This document shows, piece by piece, positions 23,332 through 36,895 of a stretch of 41,369 nucleotides of DNA. Position numbers and translations under genes: made by a program. The first letter of the stretch is position 1, and the number at the start of each line of letters is the position of its first letter. The notes under the pieces were generated by a model. The model was not told where the DNA came from. It made no database searches and saw only the letters and a program-made list of their open reading frames with translations. Origin of the DNA: an uncultured Flavobacteriales bacterium (GTDB lineage: Bacteria; Bacteroidota; Bacteroidia; Flavobacteriales_G; Salibacteraceae); NCBI GenBank assembly GCA_913062955.1, contig CAJXZP010000034.1, positions 1 through 41,369 on the forward strand. The letters run 5' to 3'.

Positions 23332-23339
23332 TACATTTG
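23332..23339 (+). promoter_or_regulatory. -7 element before the EEP nuclease gene
   Basis: TACATTTG, an exact TAnnTTTG match, lies 18 nt before the ATG at 23358. The following GCC-rich start region is typical for Flavobacteria. No good TTG is seen at the -33 distance. Confidence 0.5.
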
Positions 23340-23357
23340 CCTCCCCCAAATTGTATT

Positions 23358-24653
23358 ATGATAAAAAACATTCTTTTAGCATTTGTATTTCTTCCACTTA
23401 TGGTAATATCTCAAGATCAGGAGATTGCCACTTTCGTTAGTTACAACGTGCTTAATTACCGGAACGAAACTACCTATTGCACCAACAATAATAATTCGCC
23501 CATAGCTAAAGAAGGGTACATGAAAACGATCTTTAGTCATATTCAACCCGATTTAATTGCCTGTAATGAGGTGGGGGCGAATCCCACTAATGCCGTGAAA
23601 ATTTTGGAAAGATGTTTGAATGTAAATGGGGAAACCAAATTTCAGATGGCTTCTTTTTCGAGTAGTTCAGGTTCTGATCTCGCCAATGCCTTTTTCTATA
23701 ATGGAGAGATGTTCACCATGTATTCAAATGATAAGATTTTGAACGAAGTGGGTGGTGCTGCTATTGTACGGTTAATCGATGTGTTTACATTGTATTACAA
23801 CGATGCTAATTTATCTCTCGGTTCGGATACTACTTTTTTGACCGTGTTTGTGGCCCATTTAAAAGCCGGAAATACCAGTTCCAATAGAGGTAAACGAGCC
23901 TCAGCTACCCAGGCTGTGATGAACTACATTTCAACCCAGAGCCTCACAGGGAATTATATTTTTTCGGGTGATTTTAACGTGTATGACGCCAGTGAGACGG
24001 CTTTTCAAAACTTAGTTGCTCCAAACGATGGGTCTATTAAATTTAATGACCCCGTTAATCGAATGGGGGATTGGAATAACAATTCTTCTTATGCAGATGT
24101 ACATACCCAATCCACACATTATAGTAGCAATGGATGTGCTAGCGGTGGCGGTTTAGATGATCGTTTTGATTTTGTATTGATTTCAAATGATATGACGTCA
24201 GATGGGGATCACATGGAGTATGTCAACAATAGTTACAAAGCGGTGGCCAATGATGGAAATCATTTTAATCAGTCTATTAATAGTGGCACAAACAATTCAG
24301 TTCCTTCAAGTGTATTGGATGCCATTTACAATGGAAGTGACCATTTACCGGTGGTGATGGATATCATCATTACCGAGGCAATGCCTAATTCGGTGGCAGA
24401 GTTCGATCCCGCTTCCTTTGATGTTTCTTTCGTTAATCCATCTTATGGAGCATTGAAAGGTGTGATTAGGGGGAGTGGAAGTGAGTTTCAGATCCATTTA
24501 TATTCCGTAACCGGTAGTTTATTGGCTTCTGAAAAAATAAAAGTTTCGGGTAGTGGGAAATTCACTATTCCGGTAAACGCAACAGGGATAGTGCTTGTGG
24601 AGATTACCAATGAATCAGGATATAAGAAAATTGTTAAGGTAATTCAAAATTAA
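23358..24653 (+). CDS. Secreted endonuclease/exonuclease/phosphatase (EEP) family protein
   Basis: 431 aa. Signal peptide MIKNILLAFVFLPLMVISQ. The EEP catalytic core runs from about residue 24 to 335: FVSYNVLNYRN, then DLIACNEVG (metal-binding Glu), FVAHLKAG, IFSGDFNVYD (catalytic GDFN), FDFVLIS and a final SDHLPVVMDI His. The family cuts DNA, RNA or phosphoesters. The last 90 residues form a sorting-like beta domain (IHLYSVTGSLLASEKI ... GYKKIVKVIQN) like the T9SS type A tail, but the usual YPNP is replaced by FVNPSYG. Export to the surface is therefore likely but not certain. ATG 23358 is preferred to a longer frame from TTG 23337. Confidence 0.87.
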   Translation: MIKNILLAFVFLPLMVISQDQEIATFVSYNVLNYRNETTYCTNNNNSPIAKEGYMKTIFSHIQPDLIACNEVGANPTNAVKILERCLNVNGETKFQMASFSSSSGSDLANAFFYNGEMFTMYSNDKILNEVGGAAIVRLIDVFTLYYNDANLSLGSDTTFLTVFVAHLKAGNTSSNRGKRASATQAVMNYISTQSLTGNYIFSGDFNVYDASETAFQNLVAPNDGSIKFNDPVNRMGDWNNNSSYADVHTQSTHYSSNGCASGGGLDDRFDFVLISNDMTSDGDHMEYVNNSYKAVANDGNHFNQSINSGTNNSVPSSVLDAIYNGSDHLPVVMDIIITEAMPNSVAEFDPASFDVSFVNPSYGALKGVIRGSGSEFQIHLYSVTGSLLASEKIKVSGSGKFTIPVNATGIVLVEITNESGYKKIVKVIQN

Positions 24654-24696
24654 CATTTTAGTGATTTGGAATCTTAAAAAAGCATAAAAAACTTTC

Positions 24697-24704
24697 TACA
24701 TTTG
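24697..24704 (+). promoter_or_regulatory. -7 element before the 712-aa gene
   Basis: TACATTTG, followed by GCAGCCCC, the same arrangement as before the EEP gene. It is 59 nt before the ATG at 24764 and within the 110-bp gap after the nuclease. No well-spaced -33 TTG is seen. Confidence 0.5.
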
Positions 24705-24763
24705 CAGCCCCAATTTTGGGACATGAAAGTAAGGATCGGAATTTAAATTTTGAATAAAAGAGG

Positions 24764-26902
24764 ATGAAAAAAAGCATACTTTTAGTTTTAGTGTTCTTAA
24801 TGGGTGGGGTGTCGTTTGCACAGCAGTTTGACGAAAAAACCACCACCGTTTCTGATGTACGTCTAAACGTAACCAATATTGGAACATTCGGAAATGCTTT
24901 TAGAGGTTACCGCGATGGGAGTGGCTCTCAAAGTGGCGAGTATCCTGTAGGTTCTGGGGTAGAGCATCTTTTTGAATCCGGATTTTGGTTCGGTGGAATT
25001 GTGAACGGTCAAACCTTGGTTTCTACTTCTGCTTACGATGCCGCTCAAGGGTATTCTACAGGTAGGGCTGGTTTTGAATTCACCAATTCAAGTGGTCCTA
25101 TCAAATTAAGATCTTCCTATTTTGATAGTCCATACTTTTCTCCAAGTGCTATTTCGCATGAAGATTTTGTGTCGGTTTATACCGATTCAAATATTTTAAT
25201 CCCAGGGACACAAATTCCAATTCAAAACCATAACAACCCGTTGAATGTGGAGATTATTGGACATTCTTATAATTGGAACTATACCTTCAGTAACTTCTTT
25301 GTGATTACGAACTTCTATATCATTAATCACAGTAACAATGTAATTGATAGTGCCCATTTTGCCTTTTGGGCAAATACCGTAGTTCGTAATATTAATATTA
25401 CACCAGCAGGTTCGGGTGGAGCTGCTTTTTATGATAAAGGTGGAAATGGCTTTCTAGATTCTTTGTATATGTCCTATTGTTACGATAAAGCAGGAGATAT
25501 TGGGTTTACCCAGTCTTATGTTGGTCAAAAGTTTTTAGGAGCCGAAGATAAACATGGTTTTCACCATCCGGGAGTTTTGGATTCCAATGGTTTGGTTGTA
25601 GATGATTTAGATATTCATTACAATGTATGGCAATTTAATAATACCTCAGATCCTATTTATTTTTTACCGCAAAGTGATAACCAACGATTCCAAAAAATGT
25701 CGAAGGGTTTAAATCAATCCGAATGTTGGGCGGATAATTCCAGTACAAACCCCAATTGCAGTTCCCGTTCCATTCAAGAAACCATTAATGAACAAGGAAA
25801 TAGATCTGATTTAATAGCGGTGGGTCCGTTTCGAGATTTTGGTCCTGGCGATACTATCAACGTGACCTATGCTTTTGTTTTTGGCCCAAAAAAGGATGAT
25901 GGAGAAGACCCGGCTTTAAATACGGTAGAACAAAAAGAGTTTTTTATGCAAAATGCAGGATGGGCACAAACCACCTATAATGGCGAAGATGTAAACTTTA
26001 ACGGTGTTTTAGATCCCGGAGAGGATATTGACGGAGATGGATATATAACGCGCTATATTTTACCGACTCCTCCAAACTCACCCAGAACTCGTATTGATGC
26101 GATCGATAATCGAATTGATATTTATTGGGCAGATAATGCCGAGTCTTCAATAGATGCTATTACGCAGGAAATGGATTTTGAGGGCTATCGAATTTATAGT
26201 TCTAAATTAGGTTTTGATGTGGCTCAAACACCACCGAAATTGGATTTTGTGAAAATTGGAGAAAACGATATCCCAAATAATGGCTTGTTTAACGATGTAG
26301 GTTTTGAATCTATTCGTTTGGAAGATCCCGTCACTTTTGATGGAGATTCAAATACCTATGTTTATAAGTACAGTATTAAAAACGTTCAAAACGGATGGCA
26401 ATATGCCGTAGCAGTGACCGCCTTTGATAGAGGAAACCCCGGGGCTAATTTAGAATCGTTAGAATCCAGTCCAAACTTCAATAACTTTAGAGTTTTTGCA
26501 GGTAAAGATGCGGTGACTGATTTGGAAAAGAATGGCCCATTTGCGTACCCGAATCCCTATTATGCTGGTGCAGCTTGGGAAGGAAGGAGTTCATTTCAAG
26601 AAGAAAGTAGAAAAATCATTTTTGCCAATTTACCGGAACGTTGCACCATTAGAGTGTTCACTACAGCTGGCGATTTATTGGATGAATTCCATCATGATGG
26701 AAATTATGACGGTACCGATATTCGTTGGTTTCAAACTTTTGGTGCCGAGGATAGTGATAAAAACGTATTCTCTGGTGGCGAACACGCTTGGGATTTATTA
26801 ACACAAGACAATCAAATTTTAGCTAGAGGTTTGTACATCTTTACCGTGGAAGATCTAGATACTGGAAAACTTTACAAGTCTAAATTTTTAATAATTAAGT
26901 AA
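24764..26902 (+). CDS. Large secreted protein with sorting-type C-terminal domain (712 aa)
   Basis: Function unknown. Signal peptide MKKSILLVLVFLMGGVSFAQ. The beta-rich body opens with VSDVRLNVTNIGTFGNAFRG and contains an EF-hand/dockerin-like Ca-binding loop near residues 405-421 (DVNFNGVLDPGEDIDGDGY), followed by a fibronectin-like segment (IDIYWADNAESS ... YRIYSSKLGF). The last 120 residues (from PYPNPYYAGAAWEG to KSKFLIIK) resemble the FlgD-like or T9SS type of surface-sorting tail. Its stop codon touches the next ATG (TAAATG). Proteins of this kind are often encoded next to a TonB receptor and a PorV-like barrel, as here. Confidence 0.78.
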   Translation: MKKSILLVLVFLMGGVSFAQQFDEKTTTVSDVRLNVTNIGTFGNAFRGYRDGSGSQSGEYPVGSGVEHLFESGFWFGGIVNGQTLVSTSAYDAAQGYSTGRAGFEFTNSSGPIKLRSSYFDSPYFSPSAISHEDFVSVYTDSNILIPGTQIPIQNHNNPLNVEIIGHSYNWNYTFSNFFVITNFYIINHSNNVIDSAHFAFWANTVVRNINITPAGSGGAAFYDKGGNGFLDSLYMSYCYDKAGDIGFTQSYVGQKFLGAEDKHGFHHPGVLDSNGLVVDDLDIHYNVWQFNNTSDPIYFLPQSDNQRFQKMSKGLNQSECWADNSSTNPNCSSRSIQETINEQGNRSDLIAVGPFRDFGPGDTINVTYAFVFGPKKDDGEDPALNTVEQKEFFMQNAGWAQTTYNGEDVNFNGVLDPGEDIDGDGYITRYILPTPPNSPRTRIDAIDNRIDIYWADNAESSIDAITQEMDFEGYRIYSSKLGFDVAQTPPKLDFVKIGENDIPNNGLFNDVGFESIRLEDPVTFDGDSNTYVYKYSIKNVQNGWQYAVAVTAFDRGNPGANLESLESSPNFNNFRVFAGKDAVTDLEKNGPFAYPNPYYAGAAWEGRSSFQEESRKIIFANLPERCTIRVFTTAGDLLDEFHHDGNYDGTDIRWFQTFGAEDSDKNVFSGGEHAWDLLTQDNQILARGLYIFTVEDLDTGKLYKSKFLIIK

Positions 26903-26903
26903 A
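26882..26903 (+). repeat. 22-bp direct repeat, first copy (3' end of the 712-aa gene)
   Basis: The 22 bases encoding KFLIIK plus stop and the next A are identical to 28097-28118, the end of the 404-aa gene. The two copies therefore bracket that gene exactly. Confidence 0.85.
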
Positions 26904-28117
26904 TGAAAATTATTGGAAATGTATTAACAATTTGGTTCTTATGTATTGGCTATGGATGTCTTGCACAAGTAACTAGGAGTATTCATGAAATCCAATACAT
27001 GACGCAAATCGAATTGCAGAATTGTCGGGATACATCAGCTTATTTTGGTGATACTGTAAGAGTTATTGGAGTAGTATTACACGATGGGAATTTGACAGAA
27101 GCTCCTTCAAATTCTGTGGTGGGGGGGTATAGACCTTTAATAAATATTAGAGATACTGCAAATTTTGGTTTAGCAGGGGATTTTTCGAGTGTGCAAGTAC
27201 ATGGGATTTATTTTGAGAATCAAGAACAAACCCCAATAGAGAGTATAACAGAACTCCTTGCTGGTGACTTAATAGAAGTTTTGGGGTATGTAGGTTATTA
27301 TAAAGGTGAAACTATGATTTTCCCATTGGATAGCAACTCTATTCAAGTTCTTTCTAAAGAAAATGCTCCTACTCCGAAGTTAATTTCAATTGGTGAATTG
27401 AATGACTCAAATAGTGTAAACCAACTTGGTACAGGAGAAAAATATGAAGGGGAGTTTGTAGTGATTAATAATGTTACGGTCCAACAGGTTTATTATTTTA
27501 GTGGTGGTTCAAGGGTTAGTTTTTATGTGCGGGATGAATTTGGAAACTCCATGGTTGTTTCGGATAGGTTTCTTATCCAGAAGTTAAATACTCACTCTAC
27601 TGTAAATCCGAATAGTCTTGAGACAAATGGTGATTTTGATGCTCCTCAAGTAGGTGATTTTTACAGTTCTATTTCTGGAATAATTAATCATTCGATTAAT
27701 GGTTGTCCAGATAAACAGGGCGTAGGATATGAAATTAATCCATTTAAATCCGATCATTATGCAGTAGATTCCGTTTTTACTGGTTTAAGAGATTTTAATT
27801 ATGACAATAATTCATTGCGATCCTTGGTCTATCCCAACCCGTTGATTATTAGTTCATCTTCTAATCTAACTTTTTCTAACTTACCACAAACTGGTCTGAT
27901 TCAAGTTTATCATTTATCAGGTAGATTGATTAAAGAAATACATTTTTCCAATAACACAGTGGCTGGAGTTAGTTCTGCCAACCTTGAGTTCGGAGGTGAG
28001 GGGACGATTTTATGGAGATTAAATGAGTTTGATTTATTTACGGGTTCTTATATTTATAATATTCAAGATTTAGATTCTGAAACAATTCAAACGGGAAAAT
28101 TTTTAATAATTAAGTAA
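26903..28117 (+). CDS. Secreted OB-fold-like protein, chimera of its two neighbours (404 aa)
   Basis: Signal peptide about 1-21 (ends GCLAQ). Residues about 22-290 are a diverged copy of residues 20-280 of the 741-aa protein downstream: HDGNLTE, GGYRP, IHEIQ/VHDVQ, NDSN..NQL.TGE.YEG and a shared NGC ... GYEINPF/GYQISPF. Residues about 300-404 instead match the C-terminal domain of the 712-aa protein upstream: YPNP, FSNLP, I.V....G.L..E, WRLNE/WDLLT, DLDS ... KFLIIK. The first part resembles the OB-fold domains attached to extracellular nucleases (YhcR-OBF type), without a nuclease domain. Gap to the next gene is 22 bp. Confidence 0.8.
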   Translation: MKIIGNVLTIWFLCIGYGCLAQVTRSIHEIQYMTQIELQNCRDTSAYFGDTVRVIGVVLHDGNLTEAPSNSVVGGYRPLINIRDTANFGLAGDFSSVQVHGIYFENQEQTPIESITELLAGDLIEVLGYVGYYKGETMIFPLDSNSIQVLSKENAPTPKLISIGELNDSNSVNQLGTGEKYEGEFVVINNVTVQQVYYFSGGSRVSFYVRDEFGNSMVVSDRFLIQKLNTHSTVNPNSLETNGDFDAPQVGDFYSSISGIINHSINGCPDKQGVGYEINPFKSDHYAVDSVFTGLRDFNYDNNSLRSLVYPNPLIISSSSNLTFSNLPQTGLIQVYHLSGRLIKEIHFSNNTVAGVSSANLEFGGEGTILWRLNEFDLFTGSYIYNIQDLDSETIQTGKFLIIK

Positions 28118-28118
28118 A
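28097..28118 (+). repeat. 22-bp direct repeat, second copy (3' end of the 404-aa gene)
   Basis: Identical to 26882-26903. Both copies encode FLIIK, the stop and the last base of a K codon with the same codon choices, as expected if the 404-aa gene got its tail from the upstream gene. Confidence 0.85.
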
Positions 28119-28139
28119 CAATCAATAAAATAAATAACT

Positions 28140-30365
28140 ATGAAAAAAAACTTACTTTTTTTAGTATTTGCATTTGCGTTTTTGTTCGTTTCAGGACAAA
28201 CAGTACGTAGTGTGCATGATGTGCAATTTGTATCTGTAGCAGATCTTGCAAGTTGTAATGGAGCTTCACAGTATGATGGTGATACAGTAACGGTTACAGG
28301 AGTTGCAGTTCATGATGGAAATTTGACGGAAATAGTATCCTCCTCTGTATCGGGTGGTTATAGACCAGGAATTCACATTGTAGATACTGCTAATAATACT
28401 TCTGGTGGTGCTTTTATGGGAATCCAGATCCATGGTGTAATTAATAGTGGCCCGATCACAGATTTAAATTCAATTGTAGCGGGTGATATTGTTCAAATCA
28501 CGGGCATTGTAGGTAATTACTCTGGAGAAACCCAAATTTATCCATTATCCAATAGCGATGTTACTATTATAAATGCAGGTGTAGTACCCGCTCCTACATT
28601 AGTTGATGTGGGTGATTTAAATGACGGTAACCAAGAAAACCAATTGGAGACAGGTGAACAGTACGAAGGTTCTGTAGTGTTATTAAAAAATGTTATGGTG
28701 ATTAGCGTAGATTTAACTAGTAGTAGAATTAGATTCGTAGTTGCCGATGCTAATGGGAATAGCATTAAAGTAGATGATAGGTTTTTTGTGCAGAAACCGT
28801 CATCTCATACCGCTGTAAATCCAGATAATCCTGGTGCAATTGGTTCTTTTGTAGCTCCAGTAGTTGGAATGCAATTTGATACCTTAATAGGTATAATTAC
28901 CCAATGGGAAAATGGGTGTACTGGTGGTACAGGACAAGGATATCAAATTTCTCCTTTTGACGCTTCTCACTATGTGGTTGGTGCAACACCCCCATCTATA
29001 ACAAACGTTTTAAGAACTCCGTTAGTTCCAACTTCTTCTGAATCTCCCGTAATTGATTGTACGGTTCAAGATTTAGATGGAGGTACAGTTACTTCTGCTT
29101 ACCTACATTATACAAATGATATCGCTGCAGGTAGTTTTGATAGTGTAGCTTTAACATTGATCGGTGGTTCACAAGTTGAATATACCGCAAATATCCCAGC
29201 TATGGCTGACGGTGATATGGTAGGGTATTTCATTAAGTCAATGGACAATGATGGTAACATATCTCAATATCCTGCTACTGCAGGTGGAGCTGCATCAAAC
29301 AATGTAAGTGTGTATACTGTAAGAGATAATGGTTTGCAAATTGTAGATATCCAAAAGGTTTTGGATTACAACAATGATGCATCTTATTATGTAGGGCAAA
29401 CGGTCACCGTTACTGGTGTGGTTTCTGCTTCTGCTCAAGGGTACGATTTAGGGTATGTATTTATTCAGCAGCCTGGTCAATCTGAATGGTCGGGTATTAA
29501 TGTAACGGGTCTTTCAGACTTGGTTTTATTGAAAAGAACAGAGGAAATTACGGTTACAGGTCTTGTAGAAGAAAGTTTTGGATTTACTAGATTAGTGGTA
29601 TCTGCAATGGTTAGAACCGGAAATTTTATTCCTGTTGAAGTTACCTATTTTGATCCGTCCGATGATAACTTATACAGTACTGGAGAAATTGAGAAATACG
29701 AAAGTATGTGTGTTGGTATTGAAAACGGATCTACAGGAATGGTAATGACCAATTCACAAGTTACTTATAATACAAACACTACAGGTGAGTATACATTTGG
29801 TACATCTGCGGCCGCGACCCAATCTACGTTGGTTATGGCAGGCAGAATAAGTAATGGTCACCTTTCATCTATGTGGGTGTCTTTAGTTGCGGATACGTTT
29901 TATTATGCCAATCAAGGATTAATGGAAGTTGATTCAGTAATTACTACCATGGATATGGAGGCAGATACGGTTATTGGTATTATGCATTTTGCGTATAGTG
30001 ATTTCAAAATCTTACCTCGTAACAACGATGATATCATCAATTTATCGGAAAACGGAACGGCTATTGTATTAGATTCTACAGATTACCAATATCCAACATC
30101 TATCGTTGAAGTAAACGGTAAATCCATTGAAACGAATGTATATCCAAACCCAGCTTCAGATCTAGTATCTGTTTCTGTAAATGGAATAAACAACTTCATT
30201 GTGACTGTATATGATATTTCAGGTCGTCAAGTCTCTGAAACTCGTGTTTCAAATAACTTCACGCAAATTTCTGTAAATACCCTGAATAACGGAGTGTATT
30301 TCATGAAAGTTTCGGATACTTCAGGTAACCAATTAGCAATTGAAAAAATTGTAATCAAGCATTAA
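28140..30365 (+). CDS. Secreted multidomain OB-fold-like protein with T9SS tail (741 aa)
   Basis: Signal peptide MKKNLLFLVFAFAFLFVSG. A first OB-fold-like block (about 45-145, DGDTVTVTGVAVHDGNLTE ... GDIVQITGIVGNYSGE) and a second (about 160-280) are shared with the 404-aa protein. A beta-sandwich stretch follows (about 285-390), then another OB-like block (about 398-500, YYVGQTVTVTGVVSASAQG). A canonical T9SS type A sorting domain closes it, from NVYPNPASDLVSV to NQLAIEKIVIKH. OB blocks like these accompany nuclease domains in secreted nucleases, but no nuclease motif is present here. Likely surface-anchored or released by T9SS. Followed by a strong terminator. Confidence 0.82.
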   Translation: MKKNLLFLVFAFAFLFVSGQTVRSVHDVQFVSVADLASCNGASQYDGDTVTVTGVAVHDGNLTEIVSSSVSGGYRPGIHIVDTANNTSGGAFMGIQIHGVINSGPITDLNSIVAGDIVQITGIVGNYSGETQIYPLSNSDVTIINAGVVPAPTLVDVGDLNDGNQENQLETGEQYEGSVVLLKNVMVISVDLTSSRIRFVVADANGNSIKVDDRFFVQKPSSHTAVNPDNPGAIGSFVAPVVGMQFDTLIGIITQWENGCTGGTGQGYQISPFDASHYVVGATPPSITNVLRTPLVPTSSESPVIDCTVQDLDGGTVTSAYLHYTNDIAAGSFDSVALTLIGGSQVEYTANIPAMADGDMVGYFIKSMDNDGNISQYPATAGGAASNNVSVYTVRDNGLQIVDIQKVLDYNNDASYYVGQTVTVTGVVSASAQGYDLGYVFIQQPGQSEWSGINVTGLSDLVLLKRTEEITVTGLVEESFGFTRLVVSAMVRTGNFIPVEVTYFDPSDDNLYSTGEIEKYESMCVGIENGSTGMVMTNSQVTYNTNTTGEYTFGTSAAATQSTLVMAGRISNGHLSSMWVSLVADTFYYANQGLMEVDSVITTMDMEADTVIGIMHFAYSDFKILPRNNDDIINLSENGTAIVLDSTDYQYPTSIVEVNGKSIETNVYPNPASDLVSVSVNGINNFIVTVYDISGRQVSETRVSNNFTQISVNTLNNGVYFMKVSDTSGNQLAIEKIVIKH

Positions 30366-30370
30366 AATTT

Positions 30371-30408
30371 ATCCCGGCTGAACCATGAAAATTCGGCCGG
30401 GATTTTTT
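30371..30408 (+). terminator. Intrinsic terminator between the 741-aa gene and the lipoprotein gene
   Basis: ATCCCGGC (30371-30378) pairs with GCCGGGAT (30396-30403), followed by a T-run to 30408. The longer open frame of the next gene starts inside this hairpin, which argues for the later ATG. Confidence 0.88.
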
Positions 30409-30432
30409 ATAAATCTGTTTAAGATTTACCAA

Positions 30433-31878
30433 ATGAAATTTCAATACAAAATCGTCCTGGTTCTTTTAGCTATACTGTCGGTGTATGGGTGTAAACGGAA
30501 ACATGACAAATTGCCAAATACGGCTCCAGATACCATTATAACTCCCGAAAAAATAAACCTGGCAGGCGATGACCGCTTGAACAGTATTGTTTTCTTGAGT
30601 TGGTATGGAACCGATAAAGATGGGTATGTGAGTGAATACGAAATTTCATTGGATAACCAGAATTGGGCAAAAACAACTCAAAATGATTCGGTGTTTAGCT
30701 TTACGCTAAATGAAGGGTCAGATACGACCGATATTAGCTTTTACGTAAGAGCAATTGACAATGAAGGGTTTACGGATCCCACACCAGCGTACTTAAATGT
30801 ACCACTAAAAAACACGCCTCCTGTGGTGTCTTTTAGTGAAAATGGTTTTCCACAGGATAGTGCCCATATTGTGACTACCTTCACATGGGCGGCAAGTGAT
30901 GTTGATGGGGATGAAACCATTGTAAAAGCGTATTTAAAAGCCAATCAAGGAGACTGGGTAGAAATCTCCGTGAATGAAACGATGATTTCTTTGGTTCCAA
31001 CTAATGTGAGTCAAACAGGTATTACAGATGCTTATATCTATTATGGAACCAATCAAGTACCTCTTTCTACTACCTTAAATGGCGTGAATGTAGGAGATAC
31101 CAATACCTTTTATTTAAAAGTGATTGATTTTGCGGAGGCTGAAAGTGCTCCGGATACGTCAGAAACCCTTTTTATTAAGCCAAAAATATCTAGTCGGTTG
31201 TTTGTTTCTGGATTACCATCTGGAGCAACAACGATTTATAAAACCGCTTTGAGCGCATCGAATATTGATAATGATTTTTTGGATTATTCTTCGGATGGGG
31301 GAAAATTTCAACCCAGATTTTGGTCCCCAACCTTTGATCTATTGGTTAATAATTACGAAGATATAATTGTAGTTTCAGATGTGACTATTTTCACCAATGC
31401 GGTCACCGGTCGAAAGTCAGGTTTGTTAGATTTTATGGCGCCCAGTCTTCAATCATTTAGTAACAATGGGGGGAAATCACTCGTAGTAACTTCCTTTATT
31501 AAAGGACAAGACATTTCGGGTATTACAGGTATATTCCCTATTGACAGTTTATCTTCATCTGTGGGTCAGGCTAGGTTATATCCAGATAGTTCAATAACAT
31601 CCATCTTAGGAGTTGGTTATCCCGATATGGGCGCTATTAACGTTTTAAGTGGGCAATCACCATTTTATTTATCCATTGATGCGGAGGAAGCGTATGAAGG
31701 ACATTTCACCCCGGTACAGGGCTGGCAAGGACCTACTACCGTAGGGGCACGTAGAAAAAATGGAAATAATAAGTACTACCAATATTTTTTCTCGGTGCAA
31801 TTGTACCAATTAGACCAATCACCTTCCGATTTACAGACTTTATTTGATCAGATTCTCAACAATGACTTTAACTGGTAA
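30433..31878 (+). CDS. Surface lipoprotein with Ig/fibronectin-like domains (481 aa)
   Basis: Signal peptide II: MKFQYKIVLVLLAILSVYGCKRK, with the lipobox Cys near residue 20. The two following segments (about 40-130 and 130-255) look like fibronectin/Ig domains: SWYGTDKDGYVSEYEISLD ... FYVRAIDNEGFTDPTPAY and TWAASDVDGDETIVKAYLK. The C-terminal half contains an alternating alpha/beta stretch (DIIVVSDVTIFTNAVTG ... GGKSLVVTSFIKGQD) resembling a hydrolase or amidotransferase-like fold, not assigned. Its last 17 bp overlap the start of the TonB-receptor gene, so translation may be coupled. Confidence 0.8.
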   Translation: MKFQYKIVLVLLAILSVYGCKRKHDKLPNTAPDTIITPEKINLAGDDRLNSIVFLSWYGTDKDGYVSEYEISLDNQNWAKTTQNDSVFSFTLNEGSDTTDISFYVRAIDNEGFTDPTPAYLNVPLKNTPPVVSFSENGFPQDSAHIVTTFTWAASDVDGDETIVKAYLKANQGDWVEISVNETMISLVPTNVSQTGITDAYIYYGTNQVPLSTTLNGVNVGDTNTFYLKVIDFAEAESAPDTSETLFIKPKISSRLFVSGLPSGATTIYKTALSASNIDNDFLDYSSDGGKFQPRFWSPTFDLLVNNYEDIIVVSDVTIFTNAVTGRKSGLLDFMAPSLQSFSNNGGKSLVVTSFIKGQDISGITGIFPIDSLSSSVGQARLYPDSSITSILGVGYPDMGAINVLSGQSPFYLSIDAEEAYEGHFTPVQGWQGPTTVGARRKNGNNKYYQYFFSVQLYQLDQSPSDLQTLFDQILNNDFNW

Positions 31879-34690
31879 AATAGTAACAGGCCTTGCACTG
31901 TGCATGAGCTTTTTGATAAGTATTCCTTCGTTTGCACAAGGAAAATTATCAGGGGTGATCACCGATGCAATAACAAAAGAAACCCTAATTGGGGCAACCG
32001 TAATGATTGTAGGAACCTACAAAGGTTCAGCGACCGATATTGATGGGAAGTATGTCATTGCAGATATTAAAAAGGGCGATTATTCCATAAAGGTCAGCTT
32101 TATTGGATATGCCGATAAAATTTACAACGGAATTCATATTGACGATGGTAAAACCACCATATTAAATTCGGATCTGAGTTTGCGATCTCAAACCCTGAAA
32201 GCGGTGCAGATTGTTGGAGAGAAGAATTTAATTGATTTGGAATCCGGTGCTTCAGAGGTGAAAATTTCTCAAGAAGCTCTTTCCGAAATGAATGCACGGG
32301 ATGTCAATGAAGTAGCTGCGATGCAAGCGGGTGTCAATAAAACGACCGATGGAATTTCTATTCGGGGTGGAAGAGTTTACGAAACCCAATATGTAGTAGA
32401 TGGTATTTCTGTAGAGGATCCTTTAGCGGGTTCGGGTTCCGGAGTTAATGTGTCGGCCTCGTCTATTCAAGATATTCAAATTACCACAGGTGGTTCCGGT
32501 GCGGATCAAGCGGGGGGTATGGCCGGTGTTATCTCTACCAAAATTAGAGAAGGGGGCGATAAATTTCAAATCGGAGGCTCCTGGCAACGGGATAATTTAG
32601 GTTTCGATCAAGAGTCTTCGCATGCGTGGAATACGGATATTATGAATCTAAATCTAGGTGGAGCTGTTCCAGGAACCAAAAAGAAATTACGTTACTTTTT
32701 TGCCTTTGATGCCACTTTAACAGATGATTATTTTGGGGCTACAGCCAATCAATTGCATAGTTCTTTGTTACCTTCCAATGATTCTATTTGGGCACCCCGA
32801 TATAATAATGCCTATTCCAATACCATTAAGTTAACGTATGAAATAAAGCCAGGAACCAAAATATTCTTGACAAATCAGCACAACTTAAAAATAAATCAAA
32901 ATACCAGAACCTTACAAATTGTAGGATTTGATCAGGTATTGGCTCCCGGTTTTCAATATCAAAGAAGTTTAAACTTAGATAATGCCACTACCTATTCACA
33001 GCAATCCAACTTAACGGTTTTAAATTTAAATCACTTTTTTAATAACAACTGGAGTGTAAATGCAAGTGCAGGTAGATTGTTCACCAATTTAAGGGCAGAC
33101 GCAAATGGACGACCATTTAGAACAGAAACCGTGGATCAAATTTTGGATGAAGATGATATCGTTACCGATCCTGTAGGTATTTTCAATCCGGGTGATCCCG
33201 TGGTTTATACCCAACCTGGCCCATGGTTATATAACAATGGCGGGATTTCTGGAACTTGGCATGATCACTATGTACAGGATTATACATTGAAAGCCAAAGT
33301 GAGTTATTATCCAGAAAACAAAACACACCGGTATAGTTTTGGTTTTGAACATCACTTTCAAGAATACCAATGGACAGATGTTTTCAAACCTTGGATAGGG
33401 GCGCCAATTGTGATTAATGATACCCTTACCACTCCGTCTACAAGTGTTGGGGTGTCGAGTGATATTTGGAATGTGAAGCCATCTAATGGGGCCATTTATG
33501 CACAGGATGTAATCACCTATAAAGGAATTGTGGCCACTATTGGTTTACGAATGAACTACTGGGCACAGGGAACTTATATTGATGATGTCATTGCAGATCC
33601 TAATTCTCCAGTGGTGGATCAAATCCGTGAGGATTATATGGAGGAAACCTTTGGGATGTTTGGAAAACGATTTAAAGCCCGTTTATTACCCAAAATTAAT
33701 GTGTCATTCCCCGTAACCGATAACAACGTATTGTACTTCAATTACGGTCACTTTATGCGTTTACCGCATCCTCGATTTGTGTATCAAGGATTGGATTACA
33801 GATACCAGCAAAATTCGTTCTTGAGCAGTTTGGGTAATCCGAACTTGAATCCAGAGGTAAGTGTGAATTATGAATTGGGTATGAAATCACAACTCACCAA
33901 AGATTTAGCCTTTTCGGTTGCCGCATTTAATAACAACCGTTTTGATTACATCGTTTCAAGAAAAGTAATTGTAAATGATCCTACCGGACGACCAGTGACC
34001 AAATCCATGTATATCAATCAAGATTATGCACGTATCTATGGAGTGGAAGCCAGTATATTCTGGAGAATTGGTAAGCACTTCCGTACCACATTCAATGCGG
34101 CATATCAAGTGGCTCGTGGTAAATCCAATTCCGCACGAGAGTCGGGATTACAAATTGAGCAAAACGGAGAGGTTTCACTCACCAAAGAACAATATTTAGC
34201 TTGGGATAGACCATGGGATGTGAAATGGAATTTGATTTTCAAACCCGATACGAGTATGCATTTCCTACATGGTTTAACCGCCTTTACTACCATGCGTTAT
34301 TCTTCGGGCTATAGATATACTCCTCAAGTAAAAGTCGGAACAAATGATTTGGGTCGTCCAATTTATGAAGCGGATATGTCTCGTTATTTAGGAGAAAATG
34401 GTAAAGCTTGGTTTAATGCCGATTTGAAATTATCCTACCAAGTATCCATGAAGAAAAACAAAAAAACAGGCTTGATTTTTAGTTTCGAAATAAGAAATGT
34501 GTTGAATAACAAAAACGCCCAAACGGTGAACGCAATTACGGGTAAAGGATATGAAACGGGTGATGATGTTACTTCTCGATATAGAGATGTACGTTACCTT
34601 GGACCTGAAGAGTCAGGAGCATTACCGGATGACCCAGCACGATATTTAGCCCCTACACAATTTTTATACGGTATAAGCTTTAAATTTTAA
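31862..34690 (+). CDS. TonB-dependent outer-membrane receptor
   Basis: 942 aa. Signal peptide up to SIPSFAQ, then a carboxypeptidase-regulatory-like domain (about 26-105, GKLSGVITDAITKETLIGATVMIVGTYKG), as in Bacteroidota receptors. The plug domain (about 120-230) shows SIRGGRVYETQYVVDGISVEDP and an IQDIQITTGGSGADQAG segment. The long barrel ends LAPTQFLYGISFKF with terminal Phe. It imports an unknown ligand with TonB-ExbBD energy. No SusD partner is adjacent; instead lipoprotein, PorV-like and propeller genes surround it. ATG 31862 is used and overlaps the previous stop by 17 bp; the stop overlaps the next ATG by 1 base. Confidence 0.93.
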   Translation: MTLTGKIVTGLALCMSFLISIPSFAQGKLSGVITDAITKETLIGATVMIVGTYKGSATDIDGKYVIADIKKGDYSIKVSFIGYADKIYNGIHIDDGKTTILNSDLSLRSQTLKAVQIVGEKNLIDLESGASEVKISQEALSEMNARDVNEVAAMQAGVNKTTDGISIRGGRVYETQYVVDGISVEDPLAGSGSGVNVSASSIQDIQITTGGSGADQAGGMAGVISTKIREGGDKFQIGGSWQRDNLGFDQESSHAWNTDIMNLNLGGAVPGTKKKLRYFFAFDATLTDDYFGATANQLHSSLLPSNDSIWAPRYNNAYSNTIKLTYEIKPGTKIFLTNQHNLKINQNTRTLQIVGFDQVLAPGFQYQRSLNLDNATTYSQQSNLTVLNLNHFFNNNWSVNASAGRLFTNLRADANGRPFRTETVDQILDEDDIVTDPVGIFNPGDPVVYTQPGPWLYNNGGISGTWHDHYVQDYTLKAKVSYYPENKTHRYSFGFEHHFQEYQWTDVFKPWIGAPIVINDTLTTPSTSVGVSSDIWNVKPSNGAIYAQDVITYKGIVATIGLRMNYWAQGTYIDDVIADPNSPVVDQIREDYMEETFGMFGKRFKARLLPKINVSFPVTDNNVLYFNYGHFMRLPHPRFVYQGLDYRYQQNSFLSSLGNPNLNPEVSVNYELGMKSQLTKDLAFSVAAFNNNRFDYIVSRKVIVNDPTGRPVTKSMYINQDYARIYGVEASIFWRIGKHFRTTFNAAYQVARGKSNSARESGLQIEQNGEVSLTKEQYLAWDRPWDVKWNLIFKPDTSMHFLHGLTAFTTMRYSSGYRYTPQVKVGTNDLGRPIYEADMSRYLGENGKAWFNADLKLSYQVSMKKNKKTGLIFSFEIRNVLNNKNAQTVNAITGKGYETGDDVTSRYRDVRYLGPEESGALPDDPARYLAPTQFLYGISFKF

Positions 34691-35697
34691 TGAGAAAGTC
34701 ATTTTACATACTATTATGTGCACTGGGATTTTCAATAATTCAAGTACACGCTCAGATTATTCCTAATTTAGGGGGGCAACGGGCAGGGTTAGCTACATTT
34801 AGCTTTCTTAAAAATGATATGAATCCACGTTCTGCAGGTATTGGAGGCGCAAGTGTAGCGGTGAATACCGGTGGTTATTCAACCTTTTCAAATCCAGCAT
34901 TTGCGGCCGATTTAACCGGTTTGAATGCCACCTATTCTAGTTACCTAGTAGGTGCAGGGGTGCATCAAGGATTGTTTTCCATGGTGAGACCCGACAAAAA
35001 CAATGGCGCTATCGGGGTTTCTGTGAATTTCTTGAATTCTGGTGAAATGGATGTTCGTACCGAATTTCAACCAGATGGAACGGGTCAAACAGTGAATGCA
35101 AGTACCGTTGGAATTGGATTAACGTATTCGAAACGTTTATCGGATATGTTTACATTCGGAACTACATTACGATATATCAATGAACAATTGGCCGAATACA
35201 AAAACAATACGTTTACCATTGATTTAGGATTTGCCTATCAAACGGATTGGAGAAATTTATCTTTTGCGGTAATGCTTCAAAACTTTGGCGGTAATTCTAC
35301 TTTACAAGGCGATTATTTAGAGGTCGATTTTAATAGAAATGGAGTGGCTTTAGAAAACTATGTGTCCTCTTCTGTTTTTCGTTTAGGTTTCTCTATGCTA
35401 GCATATAAAAAAGAGCAACATTCCCTAACTTTTAATTTTGAATTACAGCATCCATCCGATAATGCCGAAAACTTCCGCTTGGGTTTAGAGTTTGAATATT
35501 TAGAATTGTTTTATTTCCGTGGAGGATATAAAATTAACGTGTTGGGCCATAATTGGCCAGTATTTGGAGCCGGTGTCCGTACGCATATAGGATCGCATAA
35601 ATTAATGATTGATTACGCAGCAGTTCCTACCAATCATTTAGGATTTCAACAATCTTTAGGATTGTCTTTCACACTTAATAATGATATACGCGAGTAG
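34690..35697 (+). CDS. PorV/PorQ family outer-membrane barrel protein
   Basis: 335 aa. Signal peptide MRKSFYILLCALGFSIIQVHAQ. LATFSFLKNDMNPRSAGIGGASVAV near 34-58 and FSNPAFAADLTG near 66-77 are the N-terminal signature of the UPF0164/PorV-PorQ group. Regular beta strands follow to the C-terminus (LGLSFTLNNDI). PorV shuttles T9SS cargo to the anchoring machinery, while PorQ-like paralogues are used by individual systems. The position between a TonB receptor and T9SS-type cargo suggests a dedicated helper for this cluster. Start overlaps the receptor stop by 1 base (TAATG). Confidence 0.87.
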   Translation: MRKSFYILLCALGFSIIQVHAQIIPNLGGQRAGLATFSFLKNDMNPRSAGIGGASVAVNTGGYSTFSNPAFAADLTGLNATYSSYLVGAGVHQGLFSMVRPDKNNGAIGVSVNFLNSGEMDVRTEFQPDGTGQTVNASTVGIGLTYSKRLSDMFTFGTTLRYINEQLAEYKNNTFTIDLGFAYQTDWRNLSFAVMLQNFGGNSTLQGDYLEVDFNRNGVALENYVSSSVFRLGFSMLAYKKEQHSLTFNFELQHPSDNAENFRLGLEFEYLELFYFRGGYKINVLGHNWPVFGAGVRTHIGSHKLMIDYAAVPTNHLGFQQSLGLSFTLNNDIRE

Positions 35698-35698
35698 T

Positions 35699-36895
35699 AT
35701 GAAAACAGTATCTTTTTTAGCGTCATTATTGACATTGGTGGTTTTTACTACTGGATGTGATAACTTCTTTGGAGATAAAACGGATGTGAGTTTTATTGAT
35801 ATTCCTGATTATCAAAATAAACCCATTGCCTACGTACCTATACAACCCGTTTTGGATCAATTTGTAAATCCTACCGATGTATTAGCCGGGTTTGATGAGT
35901 TAATTTACGTAGCCGATAACGGTAGAGAACAAATTGTAGGTCTGGATCAAAGTGGTCGGGAACTATATAGTATTAATATCCCAGGAGTGGTTTCTGTGGT
36001 TCAGGATAGGCAATTGAATTTGTTAGCCATCGGGACCAAAGATACGATTATCAATGGCTTCAATTATTCGTTTTCTTGTATTTACAGAATTGACCTACAA
36101 GGCGTGTTTGGGTATGGATTGAATAATGCCAAAATCGTAAATGAAATTGTACACCCTTTTTACTTTAAGAATACCTTTTCATCTTCCGATTTAAATGTGC
36201 GTTTGCAAGATATTGCCGTTATTGGTGAGAATGAATTTTATGTTTCTCGTACCGGGAATAGTAATAATGTGAATCAATTTGGAGGTCCGGATGATGCCGT
36301 ACTATTATTTGATGCTAACGATACCTATATTACTCCAATTAGTGTCACCACCAGAGGTGGGGTGTTTAGAGATTTCTTTAAATCGCCAACGGGAATGACT
36401 TCAGCCGCTCAGCCCCCACAAATTAGTGCAAGTAATTCGAGACACTTTGTATTTACCTCCATGGATCAGGGGGGCGATAACTTATATAAAGTGCGTTCTA
36501 TTTCGTATAATGAAACGGATTTTGGGGTGGAGTACAATCCAAATGATATTTTGATTTTAGATACCAACGTAGCAGAAGGATCCATTTTTGATCCCGGAAA
36601 GTTTACCGAGCCTGTAGATGTCACCTTATCGGGTGATGGAACAGGATATATTTTTGTAGTGGATAGAGTAAAGGATTCGGTCTATCAATTTACCTTAAAT
36701 GGTTTGGAAGGTATTAAACCACCTCCAGGCACAGGTTCGTCCAAATATGTCAAAGTTTCTTTTGGCGGTTCTGGGATTGAGCTAACACAATTTGACCAAC
36801 CTAGAGCAGTCGCTTATTTAAATGAAATTCTGTATGTAGCCGATTCGGGTAACGGACGGATTTTACGTTTTAAACTGACCACCGATTTCGATTGA
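35699..36895 (+). CDS. Lipoprotein with NHL/beta-propeller-like repeats (398 aa)
   Basis: Signal peptide II: MKTVSFLASLLTLVVFTTGCDNF, lipobox TTGC with Cys near residue 20. The body repeats a propeller-type motif: PTDVLAGFDELIYVADNGREQIVGLDQSG (about 58-86), EPVDVTLSGDGTGYIFVVDRVKDSVYQFTLNG (about 303-335) and QPRAVAYLNEILYVADSGNGRILRFKL (about 367-393). The YVAD.GN.RI form is the NHL type. Function unknown, likely a ligand- or protein-binding surface module. Begins 1 bp after the PorV-like stop (35697) and ends in a terminator. Confidence 0.85.
   Translation: MKTVSFLASLLTLVVFTTGCDNFFGDKTDVSFIDIPDYQNKPIAYVPIQPVLDQFVNPTDVLAGFDELIYVADNGREQIVGLDQSGRELYSINIPGVVSVVQDRQLNLLAIGTKDTIINGFNYSFSCIYRIDLQGVFGYGLNNAKIVNEIVHPFYFKNTFSSSDLNVRLQDIAVIGENEFYVSRTGNSNNVNQFGGPDDAVLLFDANDTYITPISVTTRGGVFRDFFKSPTGMTSAAQPPQISASNSRHFVFTSMDQGGDNLYKVRSISYNETDFGVEYNPNDILILDTNVAEGSIFDPGKFTEPVDVTLSGDGTGYIFVVDRVKDSVYQFTLNGLEGIKPPPGTGSSKYVKVSFGGSGIELTQFDQPRAVAYLNEILYVADSGNGRILRFKLTTDFD

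Follow-up and report, generated by a model that had tools for sequence, protein, structure and literature searches.

A hybrid gene lying between its two apparent parents in a Flavobacteriales genome, probably formed by local tandem duplication and ending in a T9SS-type tail

Between two genes for secreted proteins in an uncultured member of the Flavobacteriales (Salibacteraceae) lies a third gene, of 404 codons, whose product resembles the downstream 741-aa protein at its N-terminus and the upstream 712-aa protein at its C-terminus. We consider the best explanation to be a single local tandem duplication that created this gene at its new joint, with the 712 gene as the source of its tail and with export as a type A cargo of the T9SS likely, and we assign this reading a probability of roughly 0.7. 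The local origin of the 404 gene is well supported, and duplication in one step is the mechanism that we infer. The window referred to below is the whole stretch of DNA that was analysed (41,369 nucleotides of contig CAJXZP010000034.1, assembly GCA_913062955.1), and the features discussed are collected in Table 1.

Table 1. Positions in the window of the 404 gene, its parts and the neighbouring genes.
Feature	Position	Strand	Basis or remark
712-aa secreted protein gene, candidate tail donor	24764..26902	+	without Pfam or NCBIfam family
712 segment matching the 404 C-part (~codon 577 to stop)	26492..26902	+	712-family profile alignment
22-bp repeat, copy 1 (KFLIIK, stop, first base of 404 start codon)	26882..26903	+	repeat and genome scans
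404-aa hybrid gene, ATG start	26903..28117	+	ORF list, BLASTP, family profiles
Hybrid N-part, 741-type: putative signal peptide and two predicted OB folds	26903..27766	+	tree, structure model, PDB matches, profile
New joint in the 404 gene	near 27767	+	family profiles
Hybrid C-part, 712-type end with T9SS type A motifs VYHLSGR, GSYIY, GKFLIIK	27767..28114	+	tail scores, DNA comparison, profile
22-bp repeat, copy 2	28097..28118	+	repeat and genome scans
741-aa protein gene, candidate N-part donor, own type A tail	28140..30365	+	ORF list, family scores
741 segment probably duplicated in 404 (~codons 1-288)	28140..29003	+	tree, change counts; codons 186-290 unusually fast in this genome

The 404 gene is a two-part hybrid with a single joint

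In BLASTP comparisons the 404-aa protein aligns with the 741-aa protein over 377 aa (37% identity, E 1e-73) and with the end of the 712-aa protein over 120 aa (30% identity, E 9e-10). Residues 22-290 taken alone are 45% identical to the 741 protein. Family profiles for the N-part of 741 and the C-terminal end of 712, built here from relatives, divide the protein cleanly. Specifically, the 741-type profile covers residues 24-289 (338 bits), and the 712-type profile covers residues 289-404 (28 bits), which align to positions 577-711 of the 712 family, the last ~135, and run to the profile's final position. Because the two profiles meet at a single residue (289) and together tile the protein, one joint accounts for all of it, and the two-part composition proposed in the first-pass annotation of this DNA is upheld.

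The gene is packed tightly between its neighbours. Its start codon abuts the stop codon of the 712 gene (TAA followed by ATG), and it ends 22 bp upstream of the 741 gene. Within the N-part, identity is 58% at first, 65% at second and 44% at third codon positions. The lower value at third positions, together with a frame that has stayed open for 404 codons, points to purifying selection, and the 404 gene is therefore probably functional. The parts of the protein, like its secretion tail, are of kinds that are already known.

Closely related genomes carry an empty site

A search for relatives that lack the gene had been suggested earlier, and both same-genus genomes proved to be such relatives. 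The 741 orthologue follows the 712 orthologue after 8 bp in G001 and after 27 bp in G002, with no hybrid between them. More widely, the 712 and 741 genes are adjacent and on one strand in 71 of the 72 named loci that have both, and none of the 80 named loci carries a hybrid. No other 404-like gene was found in 35 genomes of the family, nor in 395 genomes drawn from the phylum, with at most four candidates scored in each of the latter. From the empty sites and the lack of a copy elsewhere, parsimony places the gain of the hybrid in this lineage. That the gene, seen in one genome, is seemingly lineage-specific and belongs to a known type of hybrid gene is well supported.

Three other loci deserve mention. 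At locus L212, a 414-aa frame with a tail is an ordinary 712 gene cut by the end of the locus and not a second hybrid. At L140 (1340-4421), two near-identical stretches of transposase-like genes (Rpn/PD-(D/E)XK-looking, as judged by eye) lie between 712 and 741, and one of these genes appears, again by eye, to be fused to an ATPase-like start. At L132 (3991-4359), the intervening DNA holds a 122-aa ORF that by eye resembles the four-helix-bundle family of 23S rRNA intervening-sequence genes.

The tail of the 404 protein resembles that of 712 alone

Within its own genome, the 404 tail has one good match, which is the 712 protein (E 1.6e-5; the next match has E 0.08). The likeness extends to the DNA. 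The last 84 nt of the 404 gene are 70% identical to the end of the 712 gene, and among about 20 further genes in this genome that carry T9SS tails none exceeds 46%; after removal of the 22-bp repeat described below the values are 60% and 40%. In searches of the class and the phylum, most of the best tail matches extending to the final residue come from frames of 690-800 aa, which is the size of 712 genes.

A type A tail might instead have come from any tail-bearing gene, in which case its likeness to 712 would be merely generic. The genome holds at least ~150 type A tails from which to draw, and the type A model scores the 404 tail about as highly (29.3 bits) as does the 712-tail profile (28 bits). 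A generic source is nevertheless improbable and is largely contradicted by the DNA comparison, in which 712 stands apart from the other tail genes, as it also does in the protein search of the genome. Furthermore, the match to the 712 profile begins at residue 289, ahead of the tail proper.

The two borders of the 404 gene share the sequence AAATTTTTAATAATTAAGTAAA, which is present in two exact copies; the chance expectation for such a repeat in the window is 0.02. A scan of the whole genome with its first 21 bases, permitting up to two mismatches, returned both copies and one further site with two mismatches; the exact repeat flanking the gene was thus correctly described in the first-pass annotation and is otherwise absent from the genome. 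The repeat encodes KFLIIK and the stop codon, corresponding to motif E, the C-terminal motif of T9SS tails, and the last residues of this motif have been reported as required for secretion (PMC10202324). Given the same peptide and stop, identical codons would arise with p ~0.012. Similarity between the end of 712 and the end of 404 continues past the 22 bp, over 86 nt at 71% identity.

The description of the gene as bracketed by direct repeats therefore holds as far as the two copies are concerned, and it carries no implication of an insertion at the repeat, whose two copies are both coding ends of the tail. Insertion at a pre-existing 22-bp repeat would also be the less simple account, because the hybrid itself would then need an independent origin. 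Under the tandem-duplication reading, the repeat would be what has been conserved best of the duplicated 712 end, with one copy closing 712 and the other closing 404.

Exact repeats at both borders could also betray a foreign segment that the assembly wrongly linked to this contig through a 22-mer common to both, and the source genome is a draft of 131 contigs, with the hybrid known from this single assembly. We regard such an artefact as very improbable. Neither border disrupts the reading frame, the stop or the start, third-position GC is 23% against 24% in the 741 gene, and codon usage is normal for the window. The segment is moreover itself a 741-712 hybrid, and it was found in no other sampled genome.

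A single duplication would give the observed gene order

The proposed event is one tandem duplication of about 1.2-1.3 kb that would have started inside the 3′ part of 712 (near codon 577) and ended inside 741 (near codon 288). Such a duplication would yield the order 712 - (741N+712C) - 741 in one step, which is the order observed, with both parents whole. The hybrid would keep the signal peptide and two OB folds of 741 and take its C-terminal T9SS signal from 712. Several observations support a birth by local duplication and recombination, as the first-pass annotation had put forward: the protein has two parts and one joint, the site is empty in both same-genus genomes, another copy was not found, the N-part tree (below) agrees, and the DNA of the tail is like that of 712 alone.

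Both the genetics of bacterial duplications and work on new genes in eukaryotes have revealed hybrid genes at the joints of tandem duplications. The present case resembles them in its whole parents, in the position of the hybrid between these two in the expected order and in having one new joint. It differs in that the joint keeps the frame and swaps a C-terminal secretion tail, and in that the hybrid has persisted with an open frame for long enough to diverge to 45% identity. With empty sites in sister species, it would offer a natural case in which a new secreted protein was made from a binding body and an existing tail within one gene cluster.

Of the separate trees for the two parts, which had been proposed as a check, the one for the N-part gives a broad placement, in which 404 clusters with the genus's 741 genes (support 88/81). 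In the C-part tree the very long branch of 404 blurs its position, and AU tests gave p = 0.055 for a place in the genus group and p = 0.005 for a pairing with its own 712. Placement tests for the N-part favour the arrangement (404,(741,(G001,G002))), which leaves the genus's three 741 genes as a group without 404. They also accept an origin on the stem of the genus (p ~0.4) and a pairing of 404 with 741 that lies outside G001 and G002, and they tolerate a distant position with G015; a sister relation between 404 and its own 741 is rejected (p ~0.01) when the tree is held to the species order.

These placements bear on the alternative that the hybrid is older, having arisen on the genus stem, earlier still or in an unsampled relative, and that it was then kept vertically with losses or transferred horizontally, recombining at the shared 712 end. 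Both the best N-part tree and the accepted stem placement agree with this history, as does the distance of 404 from its parents (45% and 38% identity), set against a 712 protein that is 88% identical in G002 and 84% identical in G001. This divergence, compared with the conservation of 712, means either that the event is older, with losses, or that change afterwards was very fast. The long branches of 404 (0.84) and of its own 741 (0.5), however, would pull both towards the base of the tree and so bias the placement on which an older origin leans. Such an origin would also require losses that left clean junctions in G001 and G002, with only the short spacers noted above, and no copy was found in the other genomes searched. 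In addition, the last 22 bp of 404 are identical to the end of its own 712, whereas the 712 ends of G001 and G002 each differ at 1 of 21 bases. We therefore judge an older hybrid to be unlikely, though less so than either a generic tail or an assembly artefact, and favour the local tandem duplication.

Predicted secretion of the 404 protein

The start of the 404 protein, MKIIGNVLTIWFLCIGYGCLAQ, has the form of a signal peptide and is a putative one; in the structure model, residues 3-19 form a helix. At the other end, the tail scores 29.3 bits with the NCBIfam type A model (TIGR04183), above its cut-off of 23, as does the tail of 741 with 52.2 bits; the 712 tail falls below this cut-off, and the 404 tail is below that of the corresponding Pfam model (PF18962; 19.9 against 27). 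The 404 tail thus resembles the T9SS type A sorting domain in passing the NCBIfam threshold and in having recognizable motifs B, D and E. It differs in missing the Pfam threshold and in having as its nearest kin the 712-type ends, which the generic models overlook.

The idea that the swapped tail would send the same OB-fold body to another anchor or partner finds no support in this comparison, since the tails of 404 and 741 alike exceed the type A cut-off. On these family scores, a separate secretion type for the 404 tail was rejected. For short and for long type A tails, the published prediction is the same mode of binding to PorV (PMC11969387). Judging from its sequence, the 404 protein most likely crosses the outer membrane through the T9SS and would then be held at the surface or released in the manner of other type A cargo.

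A literature search found no account of T9SS tail shuffling. The type A matches over the cut-off in this genome, at least ~150, represent a very large secreted set for 3.9 Mb.

OB folds and the surrounding gene cluster

Structure prediction for both halves, which had been expected to confirm their domain identity, supports it for the N-part. Most blocks of residues 21-290 are modelled at pLDDT 80-95 and form two predicted OB folds. The tail, for which a type A sorting domain would have an Ig-like beta sandwich, has pLDDT below 50 apart from the last hairpin (residues 381-402). The best PDB matches of the N-part are the OB folds of POT1, RPA and SSB, with modest TM-scores, and the Pfam model for OB-fold nucleic acid binding is matched by 6 of 24 relatives of 741.

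Partial likeness was seen to the ExeM/NucH nucleases (NF033681, cut-off 300 bits). The 741 protein (40.4 bits) and, weakly, 404 (15.7 bits) match only the OB-fold part of this model, and neither gives a full-length match that includes the EEP nuclease domain. ExeM itself depends for its activity on a region with two putative OB folds (PMC6085458). The present system differs in that 404 and 741 have no nuclease domain, the nuclease-like product being encoded by a gene of its own just upstream of 712. That product weakly matches the MnuA nuclease family, and a homologue is located directly upstream of 712 in 36 of the 62 loci with enough flank. The OB-fold matches and the nuclease-like neighbour make it plausible that the predicted OB folds bind extracellular nucleic acid, acting with the secreted nuclease-like protein. 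The acidic character of the 404 N-part (pI 4.5) calls for caution on this point.

The genes belong to a cluster (23337-36895) that encodes the secreted nuclease-like protein, the 712 family protein, the OB-fold 741 protein, a lipoprotein, a TonB-dependent receptor, a PorV/PorQ family protein and an NHL-repeat lipoprotein. Its core is conserved across the Flavobacteriales and beyond and is widespread in the Bacteroidota. No published description of this cluster was found.

Fast change in the copied domain of 741

Both the 712 gene and the rest of the 741 gene place this genome as sister to G002 (support 100/99 in each case). In the N-part tree, by contrast, its own 741 falls outside (G001,G002). 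Changes private to this 741 outnumber those private to G002 by 38 to 4 in residues 186-290 (28695-29009), compared with 55 to 27 in residues 291-700 (Fisher p 0.004), a value to be read with the knowledge that the boundary at residue 186 was chosen after the data had been seen and that the whole copied part (residues 22-290) gives p 0.17. Among the positions conserved in the nearest relatives, 741 has lost 14 that 404 keeps, and 404 has lost 14 that 741 keeps. The losses in 741 cluster in the second OB region (FxGGxRVS, HS), which 404 retains.

These patterns are suggestive only, and might reflect relaxed constraint or a division of labour following duplication of the copied 741 domain. A fuller version, in which only that domain was released after 404 arose, so that two surface proteins now divide the task of one and display the same OB body on two different secretion tails, is tentative, and we lean against it. 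If borne out, it would be an example of a partial duplication that altered selection on the copied domain of the parent alone, which can be tested.

Two other causes were considered for the fast change. Gene conversion between 404 and 741 was rejected, as 404 shares the new state at 8 and keeps the old state at 28 of the 66 N-part sites that changed in this 741 alone. An N-part of 741 acquired from a relative was also rejected. Over residues 181-240, within the fast stretch, the protein is about equally far from the relatives compared (50-53%), and it lacks residues kept by nearly all of them, so that fast change fits better than replacement.
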